Shown here one piece after another: positions 57,921 through 62,248 of a stretch of 64,000 nt of DNA; the first letter of the stretch is position 1, and the number at the start of each line of letters is the position of its first letter. The DNA comes from an uncultured Pelagibacteraceae bacterium (GTDB taxonomy: Bacteria > Pseudomonadota > Alphaproteobacteria > Pelagibacterales > Pelagibacteraceae), in NCBI GenBank assembly GCA_902533075.1, contig CACAKN010000004.1, positions 1 through 64,000 on the forward strand, given 5' to 3'. Both the position numbers and the translations under genes were made by a program. The notes under the pieces are model-generated. The model searched no databases. It worked only from the letters and a program-made list of their open reading frames with translations, and was not told where the DNA came from.

Positions 57921-58505
57921 CTAATTTAAGTTTTCCAAATATTCTTTTATTTTTTTTACTGGCAATCCCATTATTGTATCTTTATCACCTTCAATTTTTG
58001 AAAATAAATTTCTACCTTCGCTCTCTATTTGATAAACATTGTAAGCATATAAATTTTCATCAGATATCTTAGATAAGTATTTTTTTAGATCTACATCTGA
58101 AAAATTTTTCATTTGCAATATAGCTTTATCCGTATGATTCCAAATCATCGATCCATTTTTAGAAATACATACTGAACTTATTAAGTGATGCATTTTTCCA
58201 TTGAGTTTCTTAAGAATTTTTAAAGCTTCTTGCCTATCTTCGGGTTTTGATATTAGTTCACCTTCCAAATCTATTACACTATCAGCTCCTAAAACTAAAT
58301 CAGAATTATTATTTTGGCTTACTTTGTTCGCTTTTAATTCAGCTAAATTTTTTGAAATTATTTCTGGAGATGCCTTAATTCTTAATAACGTTTTCTTAAT
58401 CACATCTTCATCGATATTAGATGGTTTAACTGTGCTTGATATATTGTGTTTATCAAGAATTTCTTTTCTTACTTTACTTTTTGATGCAAGTATTAAATCA
58501 ACCAT
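57921..58505 (-). CDS. maf: Maf-family nucleotide pyrophosphatase
   Basis: LILASKSKVRKEIL; LVLGADSVIDLEGELISKPEDRQEAL. Confidence 0.93.
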   Translation of the reverse strand: MVDLILASKSKVRKEILDKHNISSTVKPSNIDEDVIKKTLLRIKASPEIISKNLAELKANKVSQNNNSDLVLGADSVIDLEGELISKPEDRQEALKILKKLNGKMHHLISSVCISKNGSMIWNHTDKAILQMKNFSDVDLKKYLSKISDENLYAYNVYQIESEGRNLFSKIEGDKDTIMGLPVKKIKEYLENLN

Positions 58506-59322
58506 TTTCTTTATAAATTTCGTAAATCTTAATTATTGAAGCAGCAGTTTCTTCAACAGATTTTCTTGTTACGTCTATAGTTGGCCATTTATATTTTTTA
58601 AAAGTATTCTTTGCATCATCAACTTCTTTTCTAATTTTATCAAGATCAGTGTATGATTTGTTCTCGGTTTCTTTTAAAGAATTCATTCTGTTTTTTCTTA
58701 TATCAACGAGTCTCTCTGGTTCTGTATTCAAACCAACAACACAAGAAATTTTTGGATTTTTTTTTAATATTTCTGGAATTGAATTTTCATTTACTAATGG
58801 AATATTAGATGTCTTAAAGCCTTTGTTGGCTAAATAAATTGATGTTGGTGTTTTACTGGTTCTGCTTACACCTAATAAAATAATATCTGATTTATTAATT
58901 TCTTTTAATAAATTTCCATCATCATGATTTATTGTAAACTGTATTGCTGCAATCCTTTTGTAGTACTCATCATTTAAAGCATATTGACCGCTGGGTTGAT
59001 GCGATGCTTTTTGATTTAAAAGTTTTGAAAAACTTAAAATTAATTCTCCTAATACTCCAAAGCATGGAATTTTTTTATCTTCGCTTGTGTTTGCTAAATA
59101 CTTTGCTAAATGAGTATCAACGATTGAATATAAAATTATTGAATTATCATTCTTTTCCGCTTCAGACAGAATTCTAAAAATTTGATTTTCAGTTCTCGTG
59201 AATGAGTATGTGTGAATTTTATAATTGTTGTTTTTAAATTGAGCTTTAATGGCAATGAAAATTCTTTCTAACATTTCGCCTGTAGAATCTGATATAAGAT
59301 AAATTTGGTGTGTATTACTCAT
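58498..59322 (-). CDS. ppsR: pyruvate,phosphate dikinase regulatory protein (DUF299)
   Basis: IYLISDSTGEMLERIF; DIILLGVSRTSKTPTSIYLANKGFKTSNIPLV. Confidence 0.93.
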   Translation of the reverse strand: MSNTHQIYLISDSTGEMLERIFIAIKAQFKNNNYKIHTYSFTRTENQIFRILSEAEKNDNSIILYSIVDTHLAKYLANTSEDKKIPCFGVLGELILSFSKLLNQKASHQPSGQYALNDEYYKRIAAIQFTINHDDGNLLKEINKSDIILLGVSRTSKTPTSIYLANKGFKTSNIPLVNENSIPEILKKNPKISCVVGLNTEPERLVDIRKNRMNSLKETENKSYTDLDKIRKEVDDAKNTFKKYKWPTIDVTRKSVEETAASIIKIYEIYKENG

Positions 59323-59604
59323 GTATTAAGTGTTAATAAATTTTTATTATTTAAATCATATTTAATTATTTTAACATTTTAAAATTTATGTTGTAAAACC
59401 TGGTTTTTATTCACATTATTAAACAACTGAATAAAAATTTCTAAAAATTTATATGTTTTGTTAATAAGCTTCAATTTTTCATATATATTTAATAAATTTA
59501 AAACACTAAATGTTAATAAATTGTTTATAAAATGTTCATTAAATTTAATCATCCTAATTCACAAGTTATACTAATAATACAATCTTATATATTTAATTAT
59601 TATT
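59323..59604. other. putative chromosomal replication origin (oriC)
   Basis: Long AT-rich gap in alphaproteobacterial ppsR-hemE context; TTATTCACA at 59407-59415, TAATTCACA at 59555-59563, TGTTAATAA at 59331-59339, 59459-59467 and 59511-59519, TGTTTATAA at 59522-59530. Confidence 0.75.
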
Positions 59605-60606
59605 ATGTCACCAATTAGAGAAGTAATATCGGATAAAAAAACGAATATAAACCCTATATGGATTATGAGGCAAGCAGGAAGGTACTTGCCAGAGTTTAGA
59701 GAAATAAGAAAAAAAAATCCTAATTTTATAAAACTATGTTTAAATCAAAAATTATCATCTGAAATAACGCTTCAGCCATTAAAAAGATTTGAATTAGATG
59801 CAGCTATTATTTTTTCTGATATCTTAATGTTGCCATATGGTTTAAATCAAAAAGTTGAATTTAAAAAAAATCTTGGGCCTTTATTAGGAAAATTAAATCT
59901 AAATGAGATTTCACAATTAAGCGAGGAAGAATTTGTAAAAAAAATTAATCAAGTATACAAAGCTATAAAGTTAGTCAGTGGTAATCAATTACTCAAAAAT
60001 AAAGACACTATAGGATTTGTTGGAGCTCCTTGGACATTATTAGTATATATGATCAACAAACGCTCCCCAAAATTTAAATTAATAGATAATTTTTTTAGTG
60101 ATAAAACTTCAATTAAAAAAATATTAGAAATATTAGATAAATTTATAAAAATTCATATTAAAAATCAAATTGACAACGGTGCTAAAATTATCCAAATTTT
60201 TGATAGTTGGGCAGGATTATTAAATGAAAGTGATCTTTTAAAATATATTTATAATCCAACTTTGTCTTTAGTAGAATTTACAAAGTCTCTAAATGTTCCC
60301 GTCATATGTTTCCCAAAGGGAATAAAAAATTATAAAGAATACTCTGAATTTATTAAACCAGACGCTATTAGCATAGATTATGAGGTCGATCCTTCTTTAA
60401 TTAGTAAAGAAATAAAAATACCTGTTCAAGGAGGAATGGATCCTAAAGTTTTGTTAACTGATAAAGAAACTATAAAAAAAGAGGCAAAAAGATACCTAGA
60501 TATATTTAAAGATCATCCTTATATCTTTAATTTAGGACATGGAATCTTACCAGAAACAGATCCTGGTATGATGGACTATTTAGTAAAAACTGTGAAAGAT
60601 TATTAA
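59605..60606 (+). CDS. hemE: uroporphyrinogen decarboxylase
   Basis: IWIMRQAGRYLPEFREIR; GFVGAPWTLLVYMI; NLGHGILPETDP. Confidence 0.97.
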   Translation: MSPIREVISDKKTNINPIWIMRQAGRYLPEFREIRKKNPNFIKLCLNQKLSSEITLQPLKRFELDAAIIFSDILMLPYGLNQKVEFKKNLGPLLGKLNLNEISQLSEEEFVKKINQVYKAIKLVSGNQLLKNKDTIGFVGAPWTLLVYMINKRSPKFKLIDNFFSDKTSIKKILEILDKFIKIHIKNQIDNGAKIIQIFDSWAGLLNESDLLKYIYNPTLSLVEFTKSLNVPVICFPKGIKNYKEYSEFIKPDAISIDYEVDPSLISKEIKIPVQGGMDPKVLLTDKETIKKEAKRYLDIFKDHPYIFNLGHGILPETDPGMMDYLVKTVKDY

Positions 60607-60607
60607 T

Positions 60608-61720
60608 ATGGATTACGTGCAACCAAAAAGAAAAACAAAAGTTGTGTTTGTACAACTTGGATCACCATCTGAACCAACAACTAAAGCTTTGAGAAAATAT
60701 CTTCGAAAATTTTTAGGTGATCCAAGAGTTGTTGACATTAACCCTTGGCTTTGGAAGATAATTTTGAATTGTTTCGTATTACCTTTTAGACCACGAAAAT
60801 CAGCAAAACTTTATGCGAGAATTTGGGATGGTGAAAGCTTTCCGTTGATTACCAATACCAGAGATTTCACAAAAAATGTTAGTGAGGAACTAAAAAAGAT
60901 AGATCCACAAGGTTATGTCGAAGTTAATCACGCTTTTTTGTTATCACCGCCGTATGTAAATGAAGTTTATGATAGTTGGGAAGAAGATTTAAAAAAAGGA
61001 ACTGGAGCAACAAAGCTTCTTGTAATACCAATGTTTCCACAATATTCCGAAAGCACTATAGCTTCGGGAATAGATGCGCTAGCAAAAGAGCTATCAAAAA
61101 GAGTAAAAATACCAACTTTTGAGGTAATAACAAATTTTCATAGAACACACGCTTTCATAGACAATTCAGTTAATCAAGTAGACTCAAAATTAGAAGAACT
61201 AATAAAACAAGGGAAGAAAATTGATAGTTTAATAATAACTTTTCATGGAATGCAAAAGAGAAGGATTGTTAATAAAGGAGACGATTATTATCGTCATTGT
61301 TATGAAACTTTTTGTCTTATTATAAAAAATCTTAAAAATATCAAACCAGAACAATGCTTGATGAGTTTTCAAAGTCGTTTTGGATCTGAGGAATGGATAA
61401 CACCATATACCGAGGATGTAGTTAAAAAATTAATATCAGAAGGAAAAAAAGAAATCGCAATATATTCTCCAAGCTTTGTTGCAGATTGTCTAGAGACTAC
61501 CGATGAATTGGGCCATGAGCTGGTAAATGAGGCAAAAGAATTAGGCGGCAATATCTATCCAATAGAATGTTTAAATACTAATAAAAATTGGTGTAAAGAT
61601 TTTGCCAAATATACTTTTACTCAAGCAGAGGGTTCGGCGCAGGATAAAGAGGATATAGAATATAAACTTGACAAAAAATATTATCAAGAAATGCCAGAAC
61701 TAGTGATGAATAAAACATAG
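60608..61720 (+). CDS. hemH: ferrochelatase
   Basis: VFVQLGSPSEPTTKALRKYLRKFLGDPRVVDI; TFHGMQKRRI; SPSFVADCLET. Confidence 0.96.
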   Translation: MDYVQPKRKTKVVFVQLGSPSEPTTKALRKYLRKFLGDPRVVDINPWLWKIILNCFVLPFRPRKSAKLYARIWDGESFPLITNTRDFTKNVSEELKKIDPQGYVEVNHAFLLSPPYVNEVYDSWEEDLKKGTGATKLLVIPMFPQYSESTIASGIDALAKELSKRVKIPTFEVITNFHRTHAFIDNSVNQVDSKLEELIKQGKKIDSLIITFHGMQKRRIVNKGDDYYRHCYETFCLIIKNLKNIKPEQCLMSFQSRFGSEEWITPYTEDVVKKLISEGKKEIAIYSPSFVADCLETTDELGHELVNEAKELGGNIYPIECLNTNKNWCKDFAKYTFTQAEGSAQDKEDIEYKLDKKYYQEMPELVMNKT

Positions 61721-61729
61721 TACCTTAAT

Positions 61730-62248
61730 ATGCATGACACATTGATAATTTATTCTAGTACAGATGGTCACACAAAAACTATTTGTAAAAGAATATCGAA
61801 TTTTTTAAATAATAAAAACGAGATTAAAATCATATCTCTGAATGAGGCAGCAAAGATTGATTTGTCTTTATTTAATAAAATAATAATAGGAGCTAGTATC
61901 AGATATGGCAAACACTCTAATAAGCTTTATAAATTTATTACATTAAATAAAAGTATATTAGACCAAAAACAAAGCATTTTTTTTTCAGTAAATGTAGTAG
62001 CAAGAAAATTAGAAAAAAATACTCCTGAAACAAATCCTTATATTAAAAAATTTTTAAAAATTTCTAATTGGAGACCCAAAAAAATAGGTGTATTTGCTGG
62101 CAGAGTCGATTATCCAAATTACGGTTTTTTTGACAAATATGTAATCAAATTTATTATGTTTTTAACAAATGGTCCTACAGACACATCACAATCTTATGAA
62201 TTTACAGATTGGTCAAAAGTAGATGAATTTGCGAAAGAATTGGCTTAA
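61730..62248 (+). CDS. hemG: flavodoxin-type protoporphyrinogen IX dehydrogenase (HemG-like)
   Basis: LIIYSSTDGHTKTICKRI; IIGASIRYGKHS; FFSVNVVARK; TNGPTDTSQSYEFTDW. Confidence 0.88.
   Translation: MHDTLIIYSSTDGHTKTICKRISNFLNNKNEIKIISLNEAAKIDLSLFNKIIIGASIRYGKHSNKLYKFITLNKSILDQKQSIFFSVNVVARKLEKNTPETNPYIKKFLKISNWRPKKIGVFAGRVDYPNYGFFDKYVIKFIMFLTNGPTDTSQSYEFTDWSKVDEFAKELA

Follow-up and report, generated by a model that had tools for sequence, protein, structure and literature searches.

Introduction

Where does the chromosome of a SAR11 cell begin to replicate? Few cells on Earth are as abundant as those of SAR11, and estimates of their growth from metagenomes depend on knowing the replication start. 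A motif-level map of the origin across the order gives such estimates an exact anchor, fragmented genomes included. We found no published motif-level account of a SAR11 oriC in the literature searched; the oriC of HTCC1062 is described as "manually identified", with no details given in the part of the source that mentions it (PMC4033161). The origins of Caulobacter (Cori) and Rickettsia both lie between hemE and a COG1806 gene (PMC1914354).

The locus analysed here lies in a window of 64,000 nucleotides from an uncultured Pelagibacteraceae bacterium (contig C4 of a 37-contig genome that is 75% complete). The closest relatives that carry a name are single-cell genomes and MAGs of uncultured Pelagibacteraceae (SAR11). 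An earlier note, made from the letters of this DNA, placed a putative oriC in the AT-rich gap between the divergent genes ppsR and hemE (59323–59604) and proposed that it works through degenerate DnaA boxes.

Results

The 282 bp of the gap separate the start codon of ppsR (PEP synthase/PPDK regulator; 58498–59322, minus strand) from that of hemE (uroporphyrinogen decarboxylase; 59605–60606, plus strand; TIGR01464, 315 bits). The gap has a GC content of 13%, against 22–36% in 2-kb blocks of the window, and thus shows the high AT content that marks origins of the hemE/COG1806 type. Its coordinates, length, composition and divergent neighbours were all verified, and the gene names given in the earlier note are borne out: ppsR, maf, aroE, coaE, dnaQ, secB and fxsA lie to one side of the gap, and to the other lie hemE, hemH, hemG and rho. 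The description of the gap as the longest in the window holds for the interior, but an ORF-free stretch of 563 bp at the cut left edge exceeds it. Across 78 SAR11 loci, this one included, ppsR and hemE are divergent and 255–286 bp apart. The least conserved part of the gap spans 59437–59508 (mean major-base frequency 0.56), where close relatives nonetheless share AATAAGCTTCAATTTT.

The genes downstream of hemE vary. In the window, a ferrochelatase and the flavodoxin-type protoporphyrinogen dehydrogenase HemG precede rho (60608–62248), and in relatives HemJ is found at that place, as a HemJ-like ORF after a ferrochelatase-like ORF (L007, 2502–3938) and as HemJ in the genome G012; the loci concerned include L096 (19488–19919). 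This difference within the genus looks as if one type of enzyme has taken the place of another beside oriC.

DnaA boxes are strongly over-represented in the gap. With at most one mismatch, TTATNCACA occurs six times against 0.97 expected, a count that none of 300 dinucleotide shuffles match, and exact TTATTMACA occurs four times against 0.10 expected (0/300 dinucleotide-preserving shuffles). Exact TTATNMACA occurs 226 times across 77 distinct SAR11 gaps, with at least one in each, compared with 13.5 in shuffled sequence (about 17-fold); because these 77 sequences share ancestry, the counts gauge conservation rather than independent events.

Seven box-like sites, A to G, are spread along the gap, together with a degenerate partner of box B. 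Box A (TTATTAACA; 59331–59339, minus strand) lies beside ppsR and is matched by exact TTATNMACA in 40/77 gaps and with at most one mismatch in 60/77. Box B (TTATTCACA; 59407–59415, plus strand) is exact in 34/77 and within one mismatch in 61/77; its partner (59426–59434, minus strand) reads TTATTCAGT here, and 21/77 gaps carry exact TTATNMACA at this place. Towards hemE, boxes D (TTATTAACA; 59511–59519; exact 25/77, at most one mismatch 57/77), E (TTATAAACA; 59522–59530; 6/77 and 43/77) and F (a weak box, TAATGAACA here; 59533–59541; 21/77 and 45/77) are co-oriented on the minus strand and spaced 11 bp apart. Box G (TAATTCACA; 59555–59563, plus strand) is exact TTATNMACA in 50/77 gaps and within one mismatch in 69/77, and its A59561 and C59562 are found in 100% of the 77 gaps. 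This genome carries a T-to-A change in box G, which reads TTATTCACA or TTATTAACA in most relatives. Box C, another copy of TTATTAACA (59459–59467, minus strand), is exact in 1/77 gaps and within one mismatch in 7/77, and is probably not a functional box, since conservation is missing.

All of the 9-mers picked out in the earlier note (A to E and G) are in place, and the minus-strand site at 59533, box F, is an addition to that list. Compared over the 77 relatives, A, B, D, F and G are kept, E more weakly, and C is not. The word degenerate is apt only in part, as TTATTMACA is the usual box of the clade and DnaA keeps the canonical recognition motif; in this genome the protein carries RDHTT, along with its N-terminal, ATPase and C-terminal domains.

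Adjoining hemE, and unnoticed in the earlier note, is an array of four DnaA-trio-like triplets, ATA CTA ATA ATA (59568–59579, plus strand; complement 3′-TAT GAT TAT TAT-5′), which follows box G after a 4-bp spacer. Aligning the 77 gaps reveals conservation with a period of three, the middle T being present in 97/84/59/88% and the third-base A in 96/97/97/98% of sequences across the four triplets. The consensus reads ATA, nTA, [CA][TA]A, [AC]TA, and the third triplet is the weakest, with a middle T in only 59%. The AT-rich stretch on the 3′ side (59580–59604, plus strand) is likely the first DNA to open, judging from its sequence; a sister family has TATATATA after its triplets.

In the basal unwinding system (BUS), three or more triplets follow a DnaA box after a spacer no longer than 16 bp, and DnaA grips the strand on which the triplets have a central A (PMC8287927, PMC6669920). 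Box G, its 4-bp spacer and the four triplets show this layout: the triplets have the NTN form, and three or more of them fall within 16 bp of the box. By sequence they form a putative DnaA-trio element of this system. A composite pattern of box and triplets has 36 exact matches in the 77 gaps compared with 0.1 in shuffled sequence. In its strict form, TTATTCACA-N4-5-TAnTAnnAnTA, it has 42 matches in 115 genomes of the genus, against three for the reversed pattern used as a control, and comparison with the coordinates of ppsR matches places 41 of the 42 in this gap, upstream of ppsR by no more than about 260 bp. The strict pattern is missing from many relatives because the boxes vary; a relaxed form is matched just once in the genome to which the window belongs (59555–59579). 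In one genome, G129, the ppsR match (C2, 75003–75825) is split into two overlapping pieces in different frames, reflecting a frameshift or an assembly error, and its sole composite match is on a different contig from the ppsR match.

We then considered where the gap lies on complete chromosomes. In G012, a closed genome of the same genus (1,343,202 bp), it occupies 1,261,949–1,262,209 and falls within the GC-skew trough, between AT and purine skew minima near 1,231,000 and a cumulative GC-skew minimum at 1,290,841, 29 kb from the gap (maximum at 615,774). The minimum of intergenic GC skew lies at 1,248,499, that of gene-strand bias at 1,287,660 and that of GC3 at 1,308,452, 46 kb from the gap; the keto curve is an outlier (1,088,112). 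As these minima spread over 1.23–1.31 Mb, with keto at 1.09 Mb, skew alone locates an origin only to within tens of kilobases. Sampled skew in two closed genomes of other genera switches at or beside the gap. In G069 the switch falls at 145–195 kb and the gap, here between ppsR and rho, at about 141 kb, within the sampled block; in G065 the switch falls at 1,040–1,090 kb and the gap at 1,090 kb. In each case none of 100 permutations did as well. The sampled signal of G079, a close relative, is not significant, and its best fit lies about 130 kb from the gap.

In G012, parB lies 9 kb from the gap, in the order hemE, hemJ, rho, mnmE, gidA, gidB, parA, parB (parB and hemJ identified by search, the other names read from translations). 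The gap holds two exact copies of TTATNCACA, of which that genome has 54 in all, and no other 262-bp segment of the chromosome does so. It also ranks first among the 178 intergenic regions of at least 120 bp, with three exact TTATNMACA matches where the others have at most one each; this genome-wide ranking is that of the relative G012, not of the window's genome.

Could the true origin lie elsewhere near the skew trough, at dnaA or at another cluster of boxes? The offsets of the cumulative GC-skew and GC3 minima from the gap would allow for this, and dnaA itself is 63 kb away in G012. However, the 598-bp intergenic stretch by dnaA in that genome contains no box, and its other box-like clusters, with one other composite match (1,290,814; 1,310,688; 1,324,370), lie mostly within genes. 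We rejected these clusters as origins on the ground that they are mostly coding sequence, and an origin away from the gap is extremely improbable.

A different concern is that the gap serves only as a two-way promoter for ppsR and hemE, with its motifs regulatory and its DnaA boxes controlling hemE. Points in favour are that the triplets, 25 bp ahead of hemE, share bases with TATACT, a possible −10 element, and that DnaA acts as a gene regulator elsewhere in the alphaproteobacteria (PMC2877005). Loci with changed neighbours speak to this point. A search of 12 genomes of the sister family (f2) gave no match to ppsR, yet at nine loci of this family (within L102–L110) a gap of 262–275 bp between maf and hemE ends in a box and triplets beside hemE. 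Their triplets are near-textbook CTA; L109, for example, reads CACAGGCACAACTACTACTACTACCTTATATATATA, near the known consensus. In G069 (locus L245, 10329–10681), rho follows ppsR and hemE is absent there, and the 353-bp gap retains TTATAAACATGACCTAATAACAAAACTAA. The module is thus kept both without a ppsR match and without adjacent hemE, and outlives either neighbour, indicating that the gap is not merely a promoter. Nor are promoters marked by conservation with a three-base period and fixed spacing, and the box cluster of G012 is unique to the gap. We therefore regard a purely regulatory role as very unlikely; a promoter may overlap the origin, as both can coexist.

Sites for the regulators of other origins were sought in the same gaps. 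IHF sites (WATCAN5WTR) number zero in the window's gap and 24 in the 77 gaps, with 27.2 in shuffled sequence, and show no enrichment. As IHF provides an accessory site and not the origin core, this reduces the likeness to Caulobacter Cori and leaves the origin claim intact. GANTC, the CcrM site, is depleted (3 versus 11.4 expected in the 77 gaps). Neither being enriched, IHF and CcrM sites were rejected as origin elements. CtrA-type TTAA-N7-TTAA occurs 37 times in the 77 gaps, weakly above the shuffles (20.9 ± 5.8, maximum 44). The gene ctrA is reported absent from Pelagibacter (PMC2877005), and a published statement on CcrM in SAR11 is ambiguous, terming the clade an exception yet crediting it with a homolog (PMC3973325).

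Discussion

We conclude that the ppsR–hemE gap is very probably, at about 94%, the oriC at which replication of this SAR11 chromosome begins. The oriC proposed in the earlier note is supported by the excess of boxes, the conservation of the gap, the skew trough of G012, the proximity of parB and the rank of the box cluster. What was computed for this reading comprises the positions of the sites, their conservation and spacing, genome-wide uniqueness, the position of the gap in the skew trough and the proximity of parB. The origin is of an expected kind, with the clade's own form of DnaA box and, unnoticed in the earlier note, a conserved signal for DNA opening. The latter extends the basal unwinding system, as read from these alignments, to a streamlined lineage reported without ctrA, and the bases to test are named.

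By analogy with the basal unwinding system of B. subtilis, a course of initiation can be proposed. DnaA would bind box B, boxes D, E and F, which share one orientation, and box G, the putative site of loading in the unwinding module. A filament of DnaA would then grow from box G onto one strand of the triplets at 59568–59579, the duplex would be opened into the AT-rich stretch beside hemE, and the helicase would be loaded at this opened stretch. Each of these steps, from the loading of DnaA and the growth of its filament to the opening of the strands and the loading of the helicase, is inferred from the B. subtilis system. More tentatively, the SAR11 origin could be among the smallest of free-living alphaproteobacteria, consisting of DnaA boxes and a basal unwinding module without control by CtrA, CcrM or IHF, in which case the timing of initiation might depend on DnaA alone.

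The SAR11 gap shares with Caulobacter Cori and the Rickettsia origin the same two divergent flanking genes, COG1806 being ppsR (PMC1914354), as well as an AT content above the genome mean, DnaA boxes and nearby parAB. At 255–286 bp it is shorter than the 383–404 bp of Rickettsia and Caulobacter (PMC1914354); in the other alphaproteobacteria compared that have this arrangement, the gap measures 214–577 bp, mostly 300–577 bp with one at 214 bp. Unlike origins of the Caulobacter and Rickettsia type, that of SAR11 has boxes of the form TTATTMACA, unenriched IHF sites, depleted GANTC and CtrA-type sites weakly above shuffles. The box-plus-triplet layout is not evident in 15 other alphaproteobacterial gaps, L190 perhaps excepted. 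As in the basal unwinding system of B. subtilis (PMC6669920, PMC8287927), three or more in-register triplets with a central A on the complementary strand come no more than 16 bp after the SAR11 box, and AT-rich DNA follows them. Despite this likeness, most SAR11 triplets have the form NTA, where those of B. subtilis are mainly CTA, the third is looser, and there is no GC-rich spacer. The sister family has near-textbook CTACTACTACTA.
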